From NCBI GenBank assembly GCA_025929895.1, contig JAICPI010000005.1, positions 1 to 64,000 on the forward strand: DNA of 64,000 bases, given 5' to 3'. Below are positions 20,151-31,540 of the stretch, one piece after another. The translations under genes and the position numbers were made by a program. The DNA comes from Thermoleophilia bacterium. Lineage in GTDB: Bacteria; Actinomycetota; Thermoleophilia; Gaiellales; Gaiellaceae. Every line of letters starts with the position of its first letter. Position 1 is the first letter of the stretch. The notes under the pieces were generated by a model. That model was given only the letters and a program-made list of their open reading frames with translations, ran no database searches and was not told the origin of the DNA.

Positions 20151-21554
20151 ATGCTGCGGCAGTTGACTCGCGAGCCCGTGCTCGCGGTGGGGATCGCCCT
20201 CGCGGTTCTCCCGCCTGCGCTCCTCCACTACCTCTCGACCGAGCAGGTCGGGTGGGGAGGCGTCACGCACCTGCTCTTCGTGGGGGCGAGCGCCGGCGGC
20301 GCGACCGCTGCCGCGCTGGCGCTGACGGTCGCGGCTGCCCGCCGGGGAGACGGGCGCAGCATGATGGTCGGGATCGCGTTCGCGGCGATGGCGGCCCTGC
20401 TCGTGCTGCACGGGATCGCGACGCCCGAGGTGCTCTTCGACGACTACGGAGTCGTGGCGTTCTCCGGCGCGGCGACGATCCCGGTCGGCGGTGCGCTGCT
20501 CGCCCTCTGCACGCTGCCCGTGCTCCGCCGGCCCGAGGCCGTGAAGCCGCTCTTCGGCCTGCTCGCGGCGATCCTGGTCGGGATCTTCGGCTTCGGCTTC
20601 GTCGGGCTCGCATTCCCGAACACCGTCCCGGGTGTCCCAGAGCCGCGCTCGGCGCCCGCCTGGATCACGCTCGGCGTCGGCCTCGCGCTCTACGGGCTCG
20701 TCGGGTGGCGCGTCTTCCGGACCTACCGCCTCACCCGGCGCGCGTCCGATCTGCTCATCGTGATCGGAACCGTCTGGCTCGCCGCCGCGCTCGCCGCCTC
20801 GCTCCTGCTCACGTACATGGACCTCGGCTGGTGGATCGGCCACGGGCTCGAGGTGCTCGGGATCGCGGCGATCGGCGTCCCGGTCGCGCTCGACCTGCGC
20901 CGCGGCACGCAGTCGCGGCCGCTGCTCGGCGACCTCAGCCCGTGCGAGCTGGTCGCCGCCGAGGAGGCCTTCCTCGGCGGCCAGGTGAGCGCGCTCACGC
21001 AGCTGCTCGCGCAGCGCGACACGTACACCGAGGAGCACACCCGCCGCGTCGCGCTTCGCTCGGTCCAGGTCGGCGAGGAGCTCGGCCTTCCGCCCGAGCG
21101 GCTGCGCGTGCTCGCAGCGGGGGGCTTGCTGCACGACATGGGCAAGCTGTCGGTCCCGGACGAGATCCTGAAGAAGCCGGGCTCGCTGACCGAGGAGGAG
21201 TACGAGCTCGTCAAGCGCCACTCCGAATGGGGCGATGAGCTGCTCGCGAACCTCGGCTTCCCCGGCGACGTCCGCCGGCTCGTGCGCGACCACCACGAAC
21301 GTCTCGACGGCTCGGGCTACCCGTTCGGCGCGTACGGCGACCAGCTCGACCTGGAGACGCGGATCATCGGCGCGTGCGACGTCTACGACGCGCTCATCTC
21401 GCCGCGCGTCTACCGCGGCGCGTGGTCGCACGACAAGGCCGTGCAGCTCCTGCGCCAGGAGGCGGGCCGCCAGTTCGACGAGCGCTGCGTCGACGCGCTC
21501 GAGCGGGTGCTCGCGCGCGACGTGCCCGAGCTCCAGCTGGCAGTAGCCGTCTAG
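20151..21554 (+). CDS. Membrane-bound HD-GYP-domain protein (putative c-di-GMP phosphodiesterase)
   Basis: A 467-residue protein with about eight membrane segments in residues 1-255, then a cytoplasmic HD-GYP domain. Catalytic features: EEHTRRVALRSVQVG, LLHDMGKLSVPDEIL (the HD pair), KRHSEWGDELL, and DHHERLDGSGYPFG (the GYP signature). These metal ligands suggest active hydrolysis of cyclic di-GMP or a related dinucleotide. The membrane part probably senses a signal, but I recognise no named sensor fold. A GGDEF gene with the opposite activity lies at 27.5 kb. Confidence 0.9.
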   Translation: MLRQLTREPVLAVGIALAVLPPALLHYLSTEQVGWGGVTHLLFVGASAGGATAAALALTVAAARRGDGRSMMVGIAFAAMAALLVLHGIATPEVLFDDYGVVAFSGAATIPVGGALLALCTLPVLRRPEAVKPLFGLLAAILVGIFGFGFVGLAFPNTVPGVPEPRSAPAWITLGVGLALYGLVGWRVFRTYRLTRRASDLLIVIGTVWLAAALAASLLLTYMDLGWWIGHGLEVLGIAAIGVPVALDLRRGTQSRPLLGDLSPCELVAAEEAFLGGQVSALTQLLAQRDTYTEEHTRRVALRSVQVGEELGLPPERLRVLAAGGLLHDMGKLSVPDEILKKPGSLTEEEYELVKRHSEWGDELLANLGFPGDVRRLVRDHHERLDGSGYPFGAYGDQLDLETRIIGACDVYDALISPRVYRGAWSHDKAVQLLRQEAGRQFDERCVDALERVLARDVPELQLAVAV

Positions 21555-23872
21555 CCCAGCGCGCCGGTGAGGCGCTGCCTCGTCTTCAGCACGCCCTCGA
21601 AGAGGTCGCCGTGCTCCTCGACCCGGCGCCGCACGACGTCCATCGTGAACGACATCGGGTCGAGGTCCTCGGTGACCTCCTCCCAGCGAAGCGGCGTCGA
21701 GACGGGCGCGCCGCGGCGCGGGCGCACCGAGTAGACCGACGCGATCGTCTTCCCCTCGCCGTTCTGGTTCGCGTCGATCAGGACGCCGCGGCGCTTCGAC
21801 TTCGTCCACTCCGTCGTCGCGAGGCCGCGATTCGTGCGCGCGATCGCGCCCGCGACGATCTCCGCGAAGCGGCGCGTGTCGTCGTACGTGTAGCGCCGCT
21901 CGATCGGCACGAGCACGTGCATCCCGTCCGCGCTCGACGTCTTCGGGAAGCCGACGAGCCCGAACGCGTCGAGCGCCGCCTTCACGAGCAGCGCGACCTG
22001 CACCGTCTCGCGAAAGCCGACGTCGGGCGATGGGTCGAGGTCGAAGAGGACGAAGTCCGGACGGTCGGGCTTGTCGATGCGCGAGTACCACGTGTTCAGG
22101 TCGATGCAGCCCATGTTCACCATCCAGAGCAGCGCGAGCTCGTCGTTGACGAGCGCGAAGTCGACCCACTTCCTCTTGCGCGGCGACTCGCGCGTGGACA
22201 CGAGCGCGCGATGGCGTGCGATCCAGTCGGGCATGTGCGAGGGCGCGTCCTTCTGGAAGAAGTGCTTCCCCTCGATCCCGTCGGGATAGCGGATCATCGT
22301 GAAGGGGCGCTCCTTCAGGTGCGGGACGAGCACGGGGGCGACGGCGCGGTAGTACGCGAGCAGGTCCCCCTTCGTGATCCGCTCGACGGGGAAGAACGTC
22401 TTGTCGAGGTTCGAGAGCTTCAGCGTCCGCGACCCCTTCCGAAGCTCCGTCGGCAGCGGCTCCTCCTCGGCCCGGACCTCGGCCGGCTCCTTGTCCTCGC
22501 GGAGGCCCTGGTAGGAGGGCGCGCGCAGGCGGTTGTCGTGCGTGCGCTCGACGAACTGGACCTGGGCGACGAGCCGAGGCTCGACCCAGACGATGTCGCC
22601 CTTGCGGACGCGCGGCGGCTTCGGCACGGGGTCGAACGCGGGCGTCGGGCGCTCGAGCGGGCGCAGGAGGCTCAGAAGACGCGAGATCTCCTTCTCGTTG
22701 AACCCGGTCCCCACGCTCCCGACGTACGAGAGGCGGCCCTCGTCGTCGTACTCGCCGAGCAGGAGCGAGCCGAAGGTGTTTGCGCGGCGGCCCTCGCCCT
22801 TCGTGAAGCCGCCCACGACGAACTCCTCGTTGCCGTGCGTCTTGACCTTGATCCAGTCGCGCGAGCGGCGCCCCGCCTGGTAGGTCGAGCGGGCCCGCTT
22901 GGCGATGATCCCCTCGAAGCCCTGCTGCTCCGCGGCGTGGAAGAGCGCGTCGCCGTCGTCGAACGCCTCCGAGAACTGCACGTCCGACACGCGCTTGTCG
23001 AGCAGGCTCTCGAGCCGCTTCCGCCGCGCGGTCAGCTCCTGGTCGACGACTGGCTCACCTTCGACCTCGAGCAGGTCGAAGGCGACGAAGATGTGGCGCG
23101 TCCCGGCCTTGCCCTGCTGCATCGCGGAGAACGTCGCGCGACCGTCCTGGTCGAGCGCACACACCTCGCCGTCCAGGACCGCGTTCGGCGTGCGGAGCGC
23201 CTTGCCGATCGCCTTCGCGACGCCCGGGAAGCGCGCGGTCAGGTCGTTGCCGTTCCGGCTCACGAGCCCGACCGTGGCGCCGGCGACGTACGCGATCGCG
23301 CGATAGCCGTCCCACTTGACCTCGTACAGCCACCCGTCGCCCTTCGGAACCTCCTTGGCGAGCGTCGCGAGCATCGGCGAATACCGTGCCGGCCTGACCG
23401 CCGGAGCACCGTCGTCGTCGCGCTTGCGCAGGATCAGCCAGTTCTTCTCGTCGCCGCTCAGCTTCGCCGGCACGAGCGCCCAGACGCCCTCGAGCTTCTT
23501 GCCGTGCAGGCGGACGGTCAAGCCGCCGTTCCGTTTTCGCTCGACCAGCTCGTACGTCCCGTTGTCCCAGATCTCGACCGTGCCCGCGCCGTAGTTCCCC
23601 TTCGGGATCTCGCCCTCGAACGTCGCGTAGTCGAGCGGGTGGTCCTCGACGTGCACGGCGAGGTGCTGCTGCCCCGGCTCGAGCGGGACGCCCTTCGGGA
23701 CCGCCCAGCTCGCGAGCGCGCCGTCGAGCTCGAGCCGGAAGTCGTAGTGGAGCCGCGTCGCGTCGTGGCGCTGCACGACGAAGATCGGATCCTTGCCCTT
23801 GCGCTTCGAGCCGAAGGGCTCCGGGGTCTGCTTCGGGTCGCGTTTGCGGCGGTACTCAGCGAGCGGCGGCAC
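21551..23872 (-). CDS. ligD: DNA ligase D (phosphoesterase-ligase-polymerase)
   Basis: Multifunctional enzyme of non-homologous end joining, about 773 residues. Residues 30-150 are the 3'-phosphoesterase (HDATRLHYDFRLEL and EIPKGNYGAGTVEIWD). Residues 165-460 are the ATP-dependent ligase, with the adenylated Lys186 in YEVKWDGYR. Residues 480-773 are the primase-like polymerase, with the metal Asp pair in FDLDPSPD (611-613). The GTG at 23872 was chosen because homology begins there; the frame is open to 23914. It overlaps the end of ku by 17 bases, implying joint expression. Confidence 0.95.
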   Translation of the reverse strand: MPPLAEYRRKRDPKQTPEPFGSKRKGKDPIFVVQRHDATRLHYDFRLELDGALASWAVPKGVPLEPGQQHLAVHVEDHPLDYATFEGEIPKGNYGAGTVEIWDNGTYELVERKRNGGLTVRLHGKKLEGVWALVPAKLSGDEKNWLILRKRDDDGAPAVRPARYSPMLATLAKEVPKGDGWLYEVKWDGYRAIAYVAGATVGLVSRNGNDLTARFPGVAKAIGKALRTPNAVLDGEVCALDQDGRATFSAMQQGKAGTRHIFVAFDLLEVEGEPVVDQELTARRKRLESLLDKRVSDVQFSEAFDDGDALFHAAEQQGFEGIIAKRARSTYQAGRRSRDWIKVKTHGNEEFVVGGFTKGEGRRANTFGSLLLGEYDDEGRLSYVGSVGTGFNEKEISRLLSLLRPLERPTPAFDPVPKPPRVRKGDIVWVEPRLVAQVQFVERTHDNRLRAPSYQGLREDKEPAEVRAEEEPLPTELRKGSRTLKLSNLDKTFFPVERITKGDLLAYYRAVAPVLVPHLKERPFTMIRYPDGIEGKHFFQKDAPSHMPDWIARHRALVSTRESPRKRKWVDFALVNDELALLWMVNMGCIDLNTWYSRIDKPDRPDFVLFDLDPSPDVGFRETVQVALLVKAALDAFGLVGFPKTSSADGMHVLVPIERRYTYDDTRRFAEIVAGAIARTNRGLATTEWTKSKRRGVLIDANQNGEGKTIASVYSVRPRRGAPVSTPLRWEEVTEDLDPMSFTMDVVRRRVEEHGDLFEGVLKTRQRLTGALG

Positions 23873-24683
23873 GCTTGGACTTTGCCGCACGCGCGGGCTT
23901 CTTGGCCTTCGCACGCGACTTCTTCGTCCGCTCGACCGACTCGCGCAGCGCGGCCATCAGGTCGACGACCTCACCGCCCCCGTCTTCGGCTGGCTCCGGC
24001 AGCTCCGTGCCCTCCGCCTTCGCGCGGAGCAGCTCGAGCAGCTCCTTGCGGTACGTGTCGTCGTACTTCTCGGGGTCGAAGGGCTCGCTCAGGTTCTCCA
24101 CGAGCGACCTGGCCATGTCGAGCTCGGCCTTCCGCAACTCGCCCTTCACCTCGACGGGCTCCGGCTTCCGCACCTCGTCGGCGTAGTACATCGTCTCGAC
24201 CACGAGCTTGCCGTCCACGGGCCGCAGGCACGCGAGGTGCTGCTTGTTGCGGATCACGACCTTCGCGATCCCGACCTTCCCCGTCTCCTCGAGCGCGCGC
24301 ACGAGCAGCAGGTACGGCTTCTCCGCGCCGTCCTCCGGCAGCAGGTAATACGCCTTCCGGAAGTAGATGGGGTCGATCTCGTCGAGGTCGACGAAGTCGC
24401 AGATGTCGATCGCCTTGGTCAGCTCGACGTCGAGGCGGTCGAGGTCCTCCTCCTCGAGCGGCACGTAGCGTCCCTTCTCCACCTCGAACCCGCGGACGAT
24501 GTCCTCCGGGTCGACGTGCTCCCCGGTGTCCTTCCGGACCTTGTCGTAGCCGATCGGGGTCAAATCCTCCTTGTGGAGGAAGTGGAAGCGGAGCTCCTTC
24601 GAGGACGTGGCCGTGAACATCCGCACCGGGACGCTCACGAGGCCGAACGAGATCGCTCCGCGCCAGATCGAACGGGGCGCCAT
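23856..24683 (-). CDS. ku: Ku, DNA end-binding protein
   Basis: A 275-residue bacterial Ku that binds DNA ends as a homodimer and recruits LigD. The beginning MAPRSIWRGAISFGLVSVPVRMF is diagnostic, and the core contains VRGFEVEKGRYVPLEEEDL and DFVDLDEIDPIYF. The C-terminal tail (RTKKSRAKAKKPARAAKSKRAAAR) is very rich in Lys, as in Ku proteins with an extended DNA-binding tail. It is followed directly by ligD in an overlapping frame. Confidence 0.96.
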   Translation of the reverse strand: MAPRSIWRGAISFGLVSVPVRMFTATSSKELRFHFLHKEDLTPIGYDKVRKDTGEHVDPEDIVRGFEVEKGRYVPLEEEDLDRLDVELTKAIDICDFVDLDEIDPIYFRKAYYLLPEDGAEKPYLLLVRALEETGKVGIAKVVIRNKQHLACLRPVDGKLVVETMYYADEVRKPEPVEVKGELRKAELDMARSLVENLSEPFDPEKYDDTYRKELLELLRAKAEGTELPEPAEDGGGEVVDLMAALRESVERTKKSRAKAKKPARAAKSKRAAAR

Positions 24684-24790
24684 GCGCGGCTCGTCCCCGC
24701 AGGGAGCAGGGCGAAAACGCGGAGGATTCGTTCTGCGCCCTGGCGGTAAGAGGTGAGGCGGAGAGTCCTCTCTCCTAGTGGGGGGTCCGC

Positions 24791-24820
24791 ACTCGAGGCC
24801 GGGTTTTCCCGGCCTCGAGT
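24791..24820. terminator. Perfect 13-bp inverted repeat with TTTT loop
   Basis: ACTCGAGGCCGGG, TTTT, then CCCGGCCTCGAGT pair without a mismatch. The site lies in the 200-base gap between the end of accA and the start of ku, both on the minus strand. No U-tract follows in the direction of accA transcription. It is probably a structured transcript end, but a palindromic protein site is possible. Confidence 0.5.
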
Positions 24821-24883
24821 CATAAAAGGGGCAGGGGAAAACACTGTGGACACTGTGGAAGAGCGGCCAGGGAGCCGCCTGTT

Positions 24884-25816
24884 CTAGGCGAAAACGCCGA
24901 GCGCCCGGAACCGGGCCCGCCGCCGGCGGGTCAGCTCGTCCACAGGCAGCGCCTCGAGCTCGTCGAGGGCCTCCTGCACCGCCCCCCCGAGCAGCCGGGC
25001 GGCCTCGTCGTGGTCTGTGTGGGCGCCGCCCGGCGGCTCCGGGACGATCCCGTCGATCACGCCGAGTTCCAGGCAGTGGGCGGCGTCCGGCTTGAAGGCG
25101 GCCGCGGCCTTCTTGGCCTCCGAGGCGTCGCGCCAGAGGATCGCCGCGCACCCCTCCGGGGAGATCACCGAGTAGATCGCGTTCTCCGACATCAGCACCC
25201 GGTCGCCGACCGCGATCGCGATCGCTCCGCCCGACCCGCCCTCGCCGATCACGACGCTCACGATCGGGATCCCGAGCCGGAGCATCGTCGCCTGGGACGC
25301 CGCGATCGCGCCGCCCTGGCCGTGCTGCTCGGCGGCGACGCCGGGGTATGCGCCGGGCGTGTCGACGAGCGTCAGCAGCGGGAACCGGAAGCGGTCGGCG
25401 AGCTTCATCACGCGCATCGCCTTCCGGTAGCCCTCCGGGTACGCCATCCCGAAGTTCCGCTTCGCGCGCTCCTTCACGTCGCGTCCCTTCTGGTGCCCGA
25501 CGACGACGACCGTCCGCCCCTGGAAGCGGCCGAGTCCCGAGATGATCGCGGCGTCGTCCCCGCGCCCGCGGTCCCCGTGCAGCTCGACCCAGTCGTCGAA
25601 GAGGCGCTCCACGTAGTCGAGCGTGTACGGGCGATCCTGGTGACGCGCGAGCTCGACCGAGCGCCAGATGTCGTCCTCGGTCGGCTCGGCCGTGATCCGG
25701 TCGAGCTGCTTCTGGAGCCGCTCGAGCTCGCCCGAGAGCCTCGCGCCGCCGAGCAGGTTGATCGACTTCAGCTTCGAGAGACGCTCCCGGAGCCGGAGCT
25801 CCGCGTCACTTGCCAT
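24884..25816 (-). CDS. accA: Acetyl-CoA carboxylase carboxyltransferase, alpha subunit
   Basis: Together with AccD it transfers the carboxyl group from carboxybiotin to acetyl-CoA to make malonyl-CoA. 310 residues with WRSVELARHQDRPYTLDYV, DRGRGDDAAIISGLG, FPLLTLVDTPGAYPGVAAEQHGQ and VIGEGGSGGAIAIAVGDRVLM, all typical of AccA. It overlaps the 3' end of accD by 11 bases. No accB/accC is in the window; birA at 37.1 kb would biotinylate the carrier. Confidence 0.96.
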   Translation of the reverse strand: MASDAELRLRERLSKLKSINLLGGARLSGELERLQKQLDRITAEPTEDDIWRSVELARHQDRPYTLDYVERLFDDWVELHGDRGRGDDAAIISGLGRFQGRTVVVVGHQKGRDVKERAKRNFGMAYPEGYRKAMRVMKLADRFRFPLLTLVDTPGAYPGVAAEQHGQGGAIAASQATMLRLGIPIVSVVIGEGGSGGAIAIAVGDRVLMSENAIYSVISPEGCAAILWRDASEAKKAAAAFKPDAAHCLELGVIDGIVPEPPGGAHTDHDEAARLLGGAVQEALDELEALPVDELTRRRRARFRALGVFA

Positions 25817-26651
25817 TGGCGAAGAGCCGCAGCAGGCGCGCGAGGTAGGGCTTCAGCTCGGGCCGGGGAACGATCGCGTCGACGTGGCCGAAACGCAGGT
25901 TCGCCTCGGCGCGGCCGAAGTCGTCCGGGAGCTTCTCGCGCGTCGTCTGCTGTACGACGCGCGGGCCGGCGAAGGACATGAGCGCGCCGGGCTCGGCGAC
26001 GAGCACGTCCCCGAGGCTCGCGAAGCTCGCCAGCACGCCGCCGGTCGTCGGGTGCGCGAGGACCGAGACGTACGGCGAGCCGGCGTCGTGCAGGTCGGCG
26101 ACCGCCACGATCGTCTTCGGCAGCTGCATCAGCGCGAGGATCCCCTCCTGCATCCGCGCACCGCCGGAGGCGCTGACCGAGATCAACGGCAGGCCGTGCT
26201 CGGCGGCGGACTCGCATGCCCGCGCGAACTTCTCGCCGACCGCGCTCCCCATCGATCCGCCCATGAACGCGAAGTCCATGACCGCGAGCTCGCACGGAGC
26301 CCCGTCGACGGCCGCCCGGCCGATCACGATCGCCTCGCCGAGCCCGGTGTTCACCTCGGCCTCGGCGAGCCGCTCGCCGTAGGGCCGCAGGTCGAAGAAG
26401 TCGAGCGGGTCGTCGGAGCGGAGCTCCGCGGCCTCCTCGGCGAACGAGCCGTCGTCGGCGAGGCTGGCGATGCGCGACCGCGCCCGCATCGGGAAATGGT
26501 GGCCGCACTGCGCGCAGACCCAGAGCGCCGCCTCGAGCTCGTCGTTCCGGTAGTGCGAGTGGCACGCCGGGCACGTGTTCGGGTGCTGCTTCTCGTCCTT
26601 CGGCGCAGCGTCCGGGGTCTCGACCTGCACGTCGATGCGCGGCTCCGCCAT
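25806..26651 (-). CDS. accD: Acetyl-CoA carboxylase carboxyltransferase, beta subunit
   Basis: 281-residue beta subunit. The N-terminal zinc ribbon is CPACHSHYR...CAQCGHHFPM (residues about 28-52). The carboxyltransferase core includes MDFAFMGGSMGSAVGEKFARA and PLISVSASGGARMQEGILALMQ. The ATG has TAAGAT 6 bases upstream and no ribosome site, so the accDA transcript is probably leaderless. Confidence 0.96.
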   Translation of the reverse strand: MAEPRIDVQVETPDAAPKDEKQHPNTCPACHSHYRNDELEAALWVCAQCGHHFPMRARSRIASLADDGSFAEEAAELRSDDPLDFFDLRPYGERLAEAEVNTGLGEAIVIGRAAVDGAPCELAVMDFAFMGGSMGSAVGEKFARACESAAEHGLPLISVSASGGARMQEGILALMQLPKTIVAVADLHDAGSPYVSVLAHPTTGGVLASFASLGDVLVAEPGALMSFAGPRVVQQTTREKLPDDFGRAEANLRFGHVDAIVPRPELKPYLARLLRLFANGK

Positions 26652-26685: not shown

Positions 26686-27462
26686 TTACAGGCCCAGCGC
26701 GCGCGTCAGGCGCTGGAGCCGCTCGACGTTCGCGGGATCCGGAGCGAGCCCCGTCAGCCCTGCGCCCACGAGCGACGAGCGCTCCCGCACGTCCGACAGG
26801 ATCGCCTCCGCCTCGTCGAGGGCGAGGCCGTCGGGCTCCGGCATGAACGACGTCAGCTCGGCCGCGTCGAGGGAGTCGGCGTCGAGCGCGACGTAGACGC
26901 ACGAGCAGTCCTGGAGCGCCCGGTCGACCGCGTCGGCACTCGTGTGCACCCCGTGCTCCTGGATGAACTCGCGCTCGGGCGGGTCCAGGTTCCGCGCGCC
27001 GACGAGCGCGACGTTCTTCGGCTTCACCGTGCCTGCGTCGATCAACATCCGCAGCGGCATCCCCCAGGCGTTGCCCGAAGGCGAGGTCTGGGGCGTGTTC
27101 AGGTCTCCGTGGGCGTCGATCCAGACGACCGCGAGCGCGTCGTGACGCGCCGCGAGCCCTTCCACGGCGCCCACGTGCGAGCAGCAGCAGCCGCCGAGCA
27201 CGAGCGGCCGGTCGGGGAGCTCCGCGGCGATCGCGAGATTCTGGTCGGCCAGCGAGTCCTCGTCGACGACGGCTGCCTCTGGGTAGTCGAGCGGGAGGTG
27301 CGCCGCCTGGACCATCGGCTCGCCCCCGTCGCCCCACGCCCGCGGGACGCGCACGAGCCCGGCGGCGAACTCGCGGCCGCACGAGTGGCACTGGTACTCC
27401 GGCCCGAGCGCGACGGCGGTGTACGTCCTGCAGTCCGGGCACTTCGCGCGACGGCGCGACAC
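26686..27462 (-). CDS. Ureohydrolase (arginase/agmatinase fold) with N-terminal zinc ribbon
   Basis: A 258-residue arginase-superfamily protein. All six expected manganese ligands can be placed: His96, Asp116-Ala-His118-Gly-Asp120 in VWIDAHGDLNTP, and Asp194/Asp196 in VALDADSLDA. Two features are odd. An N-terminal zinc ribbon (C8-x2-C11, C25-x2-C28) is fused to the enzyme, and the usual GGDHS motif reads GGCCCSHVG, with three cysteines before the ligand His. The start is GTG with TAGCCT 6 bases upstream. Substrates of the family are arginine, agmatine, guanidinobutyrate or formiminoglutamate; none can be chosen from sequence alone. Confidence 0.8.
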   Translation of the reverse strand: MSRRRAKCPDCRTYTAVALGPEYQCHSCGREFAAGLVRVPRAWGDGGEPMVQAAHLPLDYPEAAVVDEDSLADQNLAIAAELPDRPLVLGGCCCSHVGAVEGLAARHDALAVVWIDAHGDLNTPQTSPSGNAWGMPLRMLIDAGTVKPKNVALVGARNLDPPEREFIQEHGVHTSADAVDRALQDCSCVYVALDADSLDAAELTSFMPEPDGLALDEAEAILSDVRERSSLVGAGLTGLAPDPANVERLQRLTRALGL

Positions 27463-27468
27463 GCCGGG

Positions 27469-27474
27469 AGGCTA
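27469..27474 (-). promoter_or_regulatory. -10 element of the ureohydrolase gene
   Basis: TAGCCT on the minus strand is 6 bases before the GTG at 27462, matching the leaderless pattern. Confidence 0.5.
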
Positions 27475-27526
27475 CCGGCGCCGACCGGCGCTCGCACGCC
27501 TCCAGGTGGTGCGAAGCTACGGCGGC

Positions 27527-29191
27527 GTGGACACTTCTCTTGCCCGGGCTGGCGGCGGCCCAGGCGTTGCGCGGCAGGCGTCGCTCACGCTGCTCACGGC
27601 CGCCGTCCTGGCCGCACTCGCCGCCGCGGCCTATCTCGGGGCGAGCGCGTCGGCCGACGCGCACCGGCGCGCCGTCGACGAGCGGCTCGCCGAGGTGGCG
27701 CGGGCGGCAACGCTCGCGTTCGACCGGGAGGTCGCGGATTTGTCCGAGCGCGCGACGGGTGTGGCCCGGCAGCCGCGGGTCGCGCGTGCCCTCGCCCGCT
27801 CGGACGCGACGGCGCTCCGATCCGTCGCCGCGGCCGAGCAGGATGTCTCCTTCTGGAAGGACGGGACCCTGCTCGCCGGCTCGCGGCCGCCTGCGGACGC
27901 GGTCACGCGCAGCGCAGACGTCACCTTCGACGGAGCGGTGCTCGGGCGCGTCTCGGCCGAGCTCCGGCTGGACGAGGAGCTCGCGGGGCGGCTGGCGGGC
28001 GCGGCCGCCCCACGTCCGAGCGAGGGGATCGGGGTCGCCGTGGCAGGACGGCTGTACGACACGGCGGGCGTGCGGACGTTCGACCTCGCTCCGACGGGTC
28101 GAACCGCCAGCGCCGGCGGCGAGCGGCTGCGGGTGGCGTCGTCGCCGCTCCTGCGCGACCGCCGCGACGTCTTCGTCGTGGCGGCGACGCCCGCCGCGGC
28201 CGTGGACGCCGAGGCCAGCGAGCGGCGACGCCGTGTTCTCGTCGCGATCGGCGCTACCGGGCTCACCCTGCTGGCGGGCCTGGCCGCGTTCCTGATCTGG
28301 CGTAGCGGGCGCCGCACGGAGCTGCGCAGCGCCCGCGCCGAGGCCGACCGTCGTCATGTTCGCGACGCGCTCTCGCTCGTCGGCGACGCCCTCGCGGCGA
28401 CGCACGACGCCGAGGGCTTGCTGCCCGTGATCGCGCAGACGGCGATGGAGGCGGCCGGGGCGACCGAGGCGCGCCTCGTGCGCGGCGAGACGGAGATCGT
28501 GCGGGTCGGGGGTCCGAGCTCCTCCCGGACACCGCTCGTGCTCCCCCTCGGCGCCGACGACGACGGAGTCCCGCTGCGCCTGCTGCTGTTCTCCGCGGGG
28601 GGCACGCTCTCCCCCGGGGCGCGGGAGCTGGCCGAGTGGTTCGTGTCGCAGGCCGCGATCGCGCTCGAGAACGCGAGGCTGCACGGGGTCGTCCAACGCC
28701 AGGCGATCACCGACGACCTGACTGGGCTGGCGAACCGGCGACGGTTCGTCGATGCGCTCGAGAGCGAGCTCAGCCGCGCCGAGCGGTTCGGGAACGAGCT
28801 CGCGGTCGTGATCGGCGATCTCGACGACTTCAAGAGCATCAACGACCGGTTCGGGCACGAGTTCGGAAACGAGGTCCTGCGCGCGTTCGGGCAGCTCGTG
28901 ACCGACTCGACGCGCGACATCGACGTTGCCGCGCGCCTGGGCGGAGAGGAGTTCGCGGTGCTGCTCCCGCAGACGGACGTCGACGGGGGAGCGGTGTTCG
29001 CCGAACGGCTCCGCGACGGCCTCTCCGGCCTGGGGCTGGAGGGACCCGACGGGCAGCCTCTCGGCGTGACGGCGAGCTTCGGTGTGGCGGCGTATCCGCC
29101 GATCGACACCGTCGACGGCCTGCTGCGGATCGCCGACTCGGCGCTGTATCGCGCGAAGGCGCACGGCAAGGACCGCGTCGTCGCCGGGTAG
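27527..29191 (+). CDS. Membrane diguanylate cyclase with GAF-like and GGDEF domains
   Basis: A 554-residue signalling enzyme predicted to make cyclic di-GMP. A first membrane helix lies at residues 14-35 (LTLLTAAVLAALAAAAYLG), followed by an extracytoplasmic sensory domain. A second helix follows at about 240-265 (VAIGATGLTLLAGLAAFLIW), then a GAF-like region (DALAATHDAEGLLPVIAQTAMEAAG), then GGDEF with RLGGEEFAVLL. The inhibitory site RDID is placed five residues before GGEEF, so product feedback is likely. The GTG at 27527 is chosen as the membrane helix follows at once; GAAGCT lies 8 bases upstream. Confidence 0.9.
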   Translation: MDTSLARAGGGPGVARQASLTLLTAAVLAALAAAAYLGASASADAHRRAVDERLAEVARAATLAFDREVADLSERATGVARQPRVARALARSDATALRSVAAAEQDVSFWKDGTLLAGSRPPADAVTRSADVTFDGAVLGRVSAELRLDEELAGRLAGAAAPRPSEGIGVAVAGRLYDTAGVRTFDLAPTGRTASAGGERLRVASSPLLRDRRDVFVVAATPAAAVDAEASERRRRVLVAIGATGLTLLAGLAAFLIWRSGRRTELRSARAEADRRHVRDALSLVGDALAATHDAEGLLPVIAQTAMEAAGATEARLVRGETEIVRVGGPSSSRTPLVLPLGADDDGVPLRLLLFSAGGTLSPGARELAEWFVSQAAIALENARLHGVVQRQAITDDLTGLANRRRFVDALESELSRAERFGNELAVVIGDLDDFKSINDRFGHEFGNEVLRAFGQLVTDSTRDIDVAARLGGEEFAVLLPQTDVDGGAVFAERLRDGLSGLGLEGPDGQPLGVTASFGVAAYPPIDTVDGLLRIADSALYRAKAHGKDRVVAG

Positions 29192-29226: not shown

Positions 29227-29988
29227 ATGAGCGTGCTCTCTCGGGTCGGCTCGGGCGCGCTCGGCGTGTCGGCGCTGACCACGCTCGCGGGCGGGGTCGT
29301 GTCGGTCCACCTGTGGCTGCGCGCCCTCACCGGCAGCGTCGACGTCGTCGTTCCCGCGCCGTCGTCCGTCGCCTGGGATCGGGAGGTCGTGCCGACGTTC
29401 GTCGACCCGCGCCGGCCGCTACGGGCCGACTCGGGGCGGAGCGTCGACGCGCGGCCCTCGCTCGCTTCTGCCGTCTCGCGGGCTCGGCCCGCATCGACGC
29501 AGGTCGGGGACCGGGCGAGACGCCCGGCGAGGCCCACCGGGGCGCCCGGACGCCCGACCCCGGCGCCGGGCGGGCCGGGAGCGCCGGCGCCCTCACCGCC
29601 GCCGGCGACCCCTGCGCCGACTCCCCCGCCGCCCGCTGCCCCGGCGCCCCCCGCGACGCCTGCTCCGGGCGGCTCGGGCCCGGCGGTCCAGCCTCCGTCG
29701 CAGCCGCCGCAACCGAGCCCCCGGCCGCAACCGCCGCAGACGCAGCCACAACCGCCGCGCCCGCAGCCGACCCCGAGCCCACCCCGGAACCCGCCCCTGA
29801 AGCGTGACGGGCACCCGCGCGCGACGCCCGCCCAGCCCGCGGTCCCGCCGCATCGGCAGGACCCCCCGGGAACGCCCGCCGCCACGCCCGCCGTGCCGGC
29901 GATCCCGCCGCCGCACGCCGCCGCGCACGAGAACCGCCCCGAGTCGGACGACCGCGGCGACCGCGAGAAGCCCGGGAAGAAGCCCTAG
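29227..29988 (+). CDS. Proline-rich exported or membrane-anchored protein
   Basis: A 253-residue protein with one hydrophobic segment near the start (residues 10-33, LGVSALTTLAGGVVSVHLWLRAL). A long low-complexity region follows from about residue 85, dominated by Pro, Ala, Gln and Gly (PAPTPPPPAAP, PQPPQTQPQPP), ending in a charged tail (RGDREKPGKKP). The composition suggests a cell-wall-spanning linker. No catalytic domain is visible. The stop overlaps the convergent GNAT stop by 4 bases. Confidence 0.6.
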   Translation: MSVLSRVGSGALGVSALTTLAGGVVSVHLWLRALTGSVDVVVPAPSSVAWDREVVPTFVDPRRPLRADSGRSVDARPSLASAVSRARPASTQVGDRARRPARPTGAPGRPTPAPGGPGAPAPSPPPATPAPTPPPPAAPAPPATPAPGGSGPAVQPPSQPPQPSPRPQPPQTQPQPPRPQPTPSPPRNPPLKRDGHPRATPAQPAVPPHRQDPPGTPAATPAVPAIPPPHAAAHENRPESDDRGDREKPGKKP

Positions 29989-30890
29989 CCGGGTTCCACG
30001 GCGCGCTCGAGGAAGACGGTGTCGCGGTAGACGGTCATCCCCGCGCGCTCGTAGAGCCGCGTCGCGCCGGTCGGGCTCGACGCGTCGACGCCGAGCGTCG
30101 CGCGCGTGTAGCCACGCTCCCGGAAGACGGCGAACGAGTGCAGCAGCAGCGCCTCGCCGAGCCCGCGCTTCCGCCACGGCCGGCGCACGCCGAGCGTGGC
30201 CACGTACCCCGCGTTCGGGTCGACGTCGTCCTGGCGGCAGAGCGAGAAGCCCGCGAGCCGATCCCCGTCGAAGACGAGGAACCAGAGCGACGGATCGAAC
30301 GTCGCGCGCCTCGTCGTCCAGTGCCTCCAGTCCTCGAAAGTGTCCTCGATCGGGTCGGACGCATCGAGCCACACCTCGACGACGATGTCGAAGACGAGGC
30401 GCTCGTCCTCGTCGCGGTACTCCCGCAGCTCGAGCCCCGTCGGCCAGGCCGGCTCGCGCGCCTCGCCGTCGAGCGCGATCTCCATCCGGTACGAGTGGCG
30501 GCGCTCCTCGAAACCGAGGCGCGCGAAGGCCTCGACCGTCCGTGCGTCCTCGGCCGAGGTCCAGACGCGGACGATCCCGCCGTCCACGCGCTCCTCGATC
30601 CAGTCGACGAGCTGCGGAAGGGTCGAGTCGAAGTCGACGTCGGGTGCGACCTTGACGTCGCACCACCAGGTGCCCGTCGCCTCGGCGAAGTCGACGTCGG
30701 CGTACCCCACGAGCCGCCCGTCGACGTCGAGCACCCTGATGTCGCGCTCCACGTCGACGTACGGCGTCGTCAGCCAGGTGCGCAGGTCGTCCGCGGTGAC
30801 GTCCTCCTCGCCGAACACTGCGAGCTGGCTCGCGTTCATGAGCTCGAGGATCGCGTCGAAGTCGTCCTCGCGGGGAGGCCGCAGGCTCAC
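29985..30890 (-). CDS. Double-domain GNAT acetyltransferase
   Basis: 301 residues forming two GNAT domains in tandem, an arrangement shared with mycothiol synthase. The C-terminal domain has a good acetyl-CoA loop (LGVRRPWRKRGLGEALL) and the terminal ATRLYERAGMTVYRDTV. The N-terminal domain (residues 1-135) lacks a clear loop and may be inactive. It is last in a three-gene operon with the M48-type peptidase and a HAD hydrolase, coupled by a GTGA overlap (30887-30890). The substrate is unknown. Confidence 0.82.
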   Translation of the reverse strand: MSLRPPREDDFDAILELMNASQLAVFGEEDVTADDLRTWLTTPYVDVERDIRVLDVDGRLVGYADVDFAEATGTWWCDVKVAPDVDFDSTLPQLVDWIEERVDGGIVRVWTSAEDARTVEAFARLGFEERRHSYRMEIALDGEAREPAWPTGLELREYRDEDERLVFDIVVEVWLDASDPIEDTFEDWRHWTTRRATFDPSLWFLVFDGDRLAGFSLCRQDDVDPNAGYVATLGVRRPWRKRGLGEALLLHSFAVFRERGYTRATLGVDASSPTGATRLYERAGMTVYRDTVFLERAVEPG

Positions 30891-31540
30891 CCTCGCGGCG
30901 CGACGAGCTCGTCCAGGACGTCGGGCAGCGGGCGCAGATCCGGGAGCTCGCGGGTAGGTGTCGTGTCGAAACGCTCCCCGAGCCGGTTGATCCAGACCGA
31001 CGGAATCCCGAGCTCGTTCGCCGGAACGATGTCGTGGAACATGCTCTGCGCGACGTGCACGTGCTGCGAGGGGTCGGCGCCCGCGCGCGACCGGAACTCC
31101 TCCCAGTGCCGGGTCGCCGGCTTGTACGAGCCGATCTCCGACGCGACGACCGTCTCGTCGAACTCGACACCGAGCGTCGCCTTCGAAGCCTCGACGAGGT
31201 CGCGGTCGGTGTTCGAGAGGATCGCGAGGCTCCAGCCGCGGTCGCGCGCCTCCTCGAGCGCCTCACGGGCCTCGGGGAACGGATCCCAGGTGGGCAGCGA
31301 CTCCGCGAGCGCGTCCTCCTCGCCCTCGGGAACGTCGCCGAGACGGGCGAGCGCGCGCCGCATCACCTCGCGGTAGGCGAGGCCCGGCTCCTCCGCCTGC
31401 ACGGCCGGCTCGAGCTCGTGGTAGCGGTCGAGCAATGCGCGCGTGTCCTCGTCCGGCCAGAGCCGCCGAAGCTGCGCGGCGATCCCGCCGTTCCAGTCGA
31501 TCAGCGTGCCGTAGCAGTCAAACGTCGCCCAACGCGTCAT
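30887..31540 (-). CDS. HAD-family hydrolase, haloacid dehalogenase-like
   Basis: 217-residue HAD protein. The nucleophile motif is TFDCYGTLIDWNGG at residues 6-19 (FDxYGTL is typical of type II haloacid dehalogenases). SNTDRDL is motif II, the Lys is in EIGSYKPA, and the fourth motif region is HVAQSMFHDIVPANELG. The usual Asp pair is represented by a single Asp there, as in the dehalogenase group. It overlaps the peptidase gene by 23 bases. Confidence 0.85.
   Translation of the reverse strand: MTRWATFDCYGTLIDWNGGIAAQLRRLWPDEDTRALLDRYHELEPAVQAEEPGLAYREVMRRALARLGDVPEGEEDALAESLPTWDPFPEAREALEEARDRGWSLAILSNTDRDLVEASKATLGVEFDETVVASEIGSYKPATRHWEEFRSRAGADPSQHVHVAQSMFHDIVPANELGIPSVWINRLGERFDTTPTRELPDLRPLPDVLDELVAPRG

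Follow-up and report, generated by a model that had tools for sequence, protein, structure and literature searches.

The window, a stretch of 64,000 nucleotides from a Thermoleophilia soil bacterium, carries on its minus strand a gene (26686..27462, stop codon included, GTG start) for a 258-residue protein that is of a known kind, a member of the ureohydrolase superfamily, in a new variant form whose chemistry is putative. The protein is ordinary in its fold and superfamily, and unusual in its metal-ligand set, its substrate pocket and the zinc ribbon fused to its N-terminus. From comparison with its relatives we suggest, at a probability of roughly 45%, that it belongs to a Gaiellales-specific branch of the arginase superfamily and would be an active metallohydrolase of a small free amino acid, or an analogue of one, in which the scissile end group is not guanidine. 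This reading is supported by a confidently predicted arginase fold, the invariance of five of the six metal ligands, retention of the loop that contacts the substrate carboxylate, and purifying selection.

The protein, its zinc ribbon and their distribution

Orthologues of the gene were found, and Pfam Arginase (PF00491) matched residues 78-244 of the product at 100.1 bits, against a gathering cut-off of 22. An AlphaFold2 model made from a 50-row alignment (pLDDT 91.7, pTM 0.91) aligned best by VIA-align with PDB chain 6nfp_E, the B. subtilis arginase (Z 29.4, rmsd 1.9, 228 residues), and Foldseek concurred on the arginase fold; the loop bearing the carboxylate residues (121-130) was modelled less surely, with pLDDT 72. 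The family match and the model together bear out the initial annotation, which had called the protein a ureohydrolase. TIGR01229, the NCBIfam arginase model, gave 93.5 bits, below its equivalog cut-off of 227.6, and no equivalog cut-off was reached in an NCBIfam scan of the 258-residue protein. Within the literature collection searched, there was no paper in which 'arginase family' appears together with 'zinc ribbon'; by these two criteria the further claim, that the ribbon and the entry motif described below are combined in no named subfamily, has held up. Comparison with the relative L034 by the NG86 method gave dN 0.144 and dS 0.643, which indicates that selection preserves the zinc-ribbon protein. 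Two further arginase-family genes are present in the same genome.

The ribbon, CPDC-x13-CHSC, occupies residues 8-28 (27379..27441, minus strand). Among 70 recovered pieces of clade members, 3 are cut off before the N-terminus, and both CxxC knuckles were observed in 65 of the 67 that could be scored; the only 2 members that lack them, L175 and L176, both belong to family f76. In an alignment of 16 sequences, conservation begins at the Met/Val-Ser start and takes in both knuckles. The ribbon described earlier as preceding the enzyme is therefore genuine, and the possibility that it arises from a mis-called start, raised at the time as grounds for rejecting it, is ruled out. None of the Pfam zinc-ribbon gathering scores was reached, the best being Zn_ribbon_8 at 22.2 bits versus 34.4. 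Descent of the ribbon from the adjoining AccD was also considered and is unsupported (hhalign probability 11.8). We suppose that the ribbon would serve as a structural or docking element, outside catalysis.

A profile search for homologues having both the ribbon and a Cys-rich entry motif recovered a clade with both features in the window's order. A scan of contigs had yielded 80 loci, including 16 close relatives at 52-78% identity. With the clade profile, 68 of the 129 genomes of the order matched at E <= 1e-30 (24 of the 43 high-quality ones); 66 of these belong to f1, the family of the window itself, and the other 2 to f76. We take f1 to be Gaiellaceae, since the named orthologues include Gaiellaceae bacterium and Candidatus Gaiellasilicea. 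Across the class, 55 of 299 genomes matched at E <= 1e-40, every one of them in the window's order, and in a sample of 396 genomes from the phylum, scores above 300 bits were seen only for the window, G320 and G111, with the next best at 89.

The metal site and the substrate pocket

The metal site of arginase is a textbook di-manganese centre. For the residues referred to here as His101, His141, Ser230 and Thr246 we use what we take to be the arginase numbering. The six ligands of the site lie in the sequence elements GGDHS, DAHxD and SxDxDxxDP, according to PMC10028609. The counterparts of these elements in the window's protein, all on the minus strand, are GGCCCSH (residues 90-96; 27175..27195), DAHGD with 3 retained ligands (residues 116-120; 27103..27117) and DAD with 2 (residues 194-196; 26875..26883). 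In alignments with PDB arginases, and in a MAFFT alignment of 50 sequences that set the protein against 49 homologues, the segment from GG to DAHxD was gapless, so that GGDHS lies over GGCCC, and the segment from GG to DAH was likewise gapless against 6dkt and 2ef4. The register is settled by natural relatives: five clade members (L138, L139, L145, L148 and L153) have GGDCCSH, which shows that in GGCCC the first Cys stands for Asp100 and the second for His101, and another, L170, has GGSCCAH. In this register Cys93 occupies the position of the ligand His101, and His96 lies off it, at 101+3.

Residue counts over the clade refer to the 70 pieces, which come from 68 genomes (two genomes being split over two contigs each). 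Cys93 and His96 were each found in 66/66 sequences, Cys94 in 65/66 and Cys92 in 60/66, the exceptions at the last position being Asp in 5 and Ser in 1; D116, H118 and D120 are each present in 68/68, and D194 and D196 each in 67/67. Thus 5 of the 6 arginase metal ligands are retained, and the His of GGDHS is Cys in 66/66. The initial annotation was correct in describing the GGCCCSH motif, and mistaken in assigning its His as the ligand and hence in counting all six manganese ligands as kept; to place His96 at position 101 requires a gap of three residues, which the gapless alignment and the GGDCCSH members oppose. Poor conservation of the cysteines, which it had named as a second ground for doubt, was not observed at Cys93 or Cys94 and applies in some degree to Cys92. 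The first metal site may be completed by Cys93, perhaps together with His96, which would lie a helical turn further along, and a site containing this Cys would favour a metal softer than manganese, or a modified di-metal centre.

In human arginase the alpha-carboxylate of the substrate is held by N130, S137 and N139, and the alpha-amino group by loop B, D181-P184 (PMC9224512). The corresponding loop here, NTPQTSPSGNAW (residues 122-133; 27064..27099, minus strand), keeps the equivalents of all 3 carboxylate residues, N122 (68/68), S129 (66 Ser and 2 Thr) and N131 (66 Asn and 2 Asp), together with S127 (68/68), and has W133 in place of His141 (68/68 pieces). D160 and E163 were also found in 68/68 each. 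The position of arginase D181 varies in the clade among Asn, Ser, Ala and Asp, with Asp in 2/68. Glu277, a residue of human arginase-1 (PMC10028609), is replaced by Gly238 (26749..26751, minus strand), and this position is Gly in 16/16 clade rows and Glu in 70/70 canonical homologues. Taken together, positions 101, 141 and 277 read His, His and Glu in 70/70 canonical homologues and Cys, Trp and Gly in 16/16 ribbon-clade rows. In summary, the clade resembles arginase (TIGR01229; PDB 6nfp, 1cev, 2ef4) in its fold, 5 of 6 metal ligands, the N130/S137/N139 set and an R-x-x-D-x-x-E loop, and differs from it at these three positions, in having Met for Thr at residue 207, and in the ribbon that precedes the enzyme.

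A useful comparison is with the peptide arginases, as they are described in PMC10028609. OspR resembles the clade in having an arginase-like metal site with Glu277 replaced. Yet OspR keeps all of its metal ligands and has lost amino-acid recognition, the residues that hold the alpha-carboxylate being lost in peptide arginases, and the ribbon clade is the reverse of this; the peptide arginases also have EEH(N/H)EAF in place of GGDHS, where the clade has GGCCCSH or GGDCCSH. Since the residues with which arginase holds the alpha-carboxylate of its substrate, a free amino acid, are kept in essentially all members, the earlier suggestion of a macromolecular substrate is disfavoured. The retention of residues for amino-acid recognition, with replacement of those at the guanidine end, would point to an end group other than guanidine, and we infer that the pocket fits a free amino acid of this kind.

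A wider group of Cys-type proteins

We placed the clade among 109 homologues in a maximum-likelihood tree (IQ-TREE, drawn with a midpoint root), from which L004, L038, L048, L049 and L078, as duplicates or fragments, and open reading frames without a DxHxD match were omitted. Of these rows, 39 split off from the other 70 with support of 100/97, and position 101 is Cys in 39/39 rows on one side and His in 70/70 on the other; because the rows are related, these counts represent few independent events. The 39 Cys-type rows include Actinomycetota, Chloroflexota, Pseudomonadota and Bacillota. The tree has long branches, and the joining of L052 and L059 may be false.

Besides 16 rows of the ribbon clade, the Cys-type side holds 23 unnamed ureohydrolases (L007-L011, L013, L014, L020, L026, L027, L033, L051, L052, L059, L082, L091, L095, L097, L099, L107, L110, L112 and L113), with entry motifs such as GGDC, GGNC and GDCC (for example in L007-L011, L051 and L091). 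Cys stands at the ligand-His position in 23/23, and the paired CxxC ribbon was found in none. Three of them (L007, L052 and L059) retain both His141 and Glu277, and the remaining 20 have neither. Among loci of this group, 20/20 scanned matched the NCBIfam arginase model by E-value (best 7e-39), most being without His141 and Glu277. The residue two before DxD is His in 23/23 of these rows; in contrast, it is Ala in 16/16 ribbon-clade rows (residue 192 of the window's protein), and among the canonical rows it is Ser in 65, Thr in 4 and Gln in 1. Conversely, His96 is present in 16/16 ribbon-clade rows, 0/23 other Cys-type rows and 0/70 canonical rows. N131 is mostly lost outside the ribbon clade on the Cys-type side.

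Canonical enzymes have an imidazole at position 101; its role may have passed to the His that lies two residues ahead of DxD in the other Cys-type proteins, and to His96, at 101+3, in the ribbon clade. It is a tentative and still doubtful proposal, drawn from these alignments, that the first-site imidazole has moved twice with Cys left in its old place, and that the ribbon clade is a new amino-acid hydrolase with a Cys-liganded metal that need not be manganese.

Gene neighbourhood and alternative readings

The next gene downstream in the clade is accD (25806..26651, minus strand; Pfam Carboxyl_trans and synteny), and it is followed in the window by accA (24884..25816, minus strand; Pfam ACCA and synteny). 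Our neighbourhood count covers 74 loci, of which four from the contig scan may repeat genomes already counted. A same-strand accD came next in 68 of the 69 loci with room for it, within 200 bp in 64, with longer gaps in L115, L133, L149 and L156. On the upstream side, among 65 loci with more than 900 bp of room, a HAD-family hydrolase gene was seen in 52 and a GNAT acetyltransferase gene in 39, the latter directly upstream of the ribbon gene in many relatives and the former a neighbour of both ribbon-less members as well. In the window these two genes (GNAT, 29985..30890; HAD, 30887..31540; both minus strand) lie beyond a GGDEF-domain gene (27419-29191, plus strand; Pfam PF00990) and a Pro/Ala-rich open reading frame (29227-29988, plus strand), which split a row of genes that is contiguous in most relatives; L034 also has a GGDEF gene upstream on the opposite strand. 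Many relatives have Ku and LigD after accDA (21551-25151 in the window, minus strand), which places end-joining genes beside fatty-acid synthesis genes in a row that is conserved; the LigD domains are in the order phosphoesterase, ligase, polymerase (Pfam). None of the neighbouring genes examined named a substrate or pathway.

This setting bears on the reading that we consider rather unlikely, namely that the protein is a pseudoenzyme or a regulatory subunit, which may use the ribbon to dock onto AccD/AccA. Without His141 and Glu277 the protein could just as well be catalytically dead, one metal ligand is lost as well, and there is a precedent in MefH beta, an inactive ureohydrolase subunit with a degenerate metal site (PMC11399263). 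However, five of the ligands, and with them the substrate loop, do not vary in the clade, unlike a decayed site. As for the carboxylase, the constancy of accD as neighbour would suit a partner, yet 9 genomes without the ribbon gene keep accDA (10 were searched, and one gave no accD), so that the place is conserved and the gene is dispensable for accDA. In four such cases (L183, L184, L185 and L186) the gene immediately upstream of accD is GNAT or HAD, and a functional operon with accDA is weakened accordingly. Moreover, both ribbon-less members sit elsewhere than the usual place before accD-accA, and in L175 accD is absent from the surrounding 6 kb. On the L175 contig (1-6000) the gene follows a HAD gene and is preceded by putative trmD, rplS, lepB, rnhB, comM and dprA, recognized by eye from their translations.

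We regard as unlikely the view that the clade hydrolyses guanidines after all, acting in the manner of DcsB, an N-omega-hydroxy-L-arginine amidinohydrolase (PDB 6lug), on an arginine analogue, N-hydroxyarginine or an agmatine-like compound. DcsB is a sequence relative (clade-profile match 9.8e-18), and the offsets of two alignments put its residue 86, which we take to be a Cys near the manganese site, on the Cys93 column; the offset of another alignment gives residue 85. That a Cys-type site can coexist with His141 and Glu277 is seen in L007, L052 and L059, whereas both residues are lost in 16/16 ribbon-clade rows. The matched stretch of DcsB shows no zinc ribbon, unlike the clade. A redox or metal sensor, in which the Cys cluster and the separate four-Cys ribbon report oxidants or metals, takes up a suggestion of the initial annotation and is improbable: Cys93 alone of the triplet is invariant while C92 and C94 vary, the ribbon-less L175 and L176 still have GGCCC, and no DNA-binding or signalling partner was seen.

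In every Cys-type member, here and in the wider set, one ligand of the arginase site is Cys and the remainder are invariant, and a His that would compensate occupies two different places across these proteins. They may thus offer a natural series in which to study how a di-metal hydrolase changes its metal and leaving group while amino-acid recognition is kept. In annotation, an 'arginase family' protein that has GGDC, GGNC, GDCC or GGCCC should not be called an arginase.
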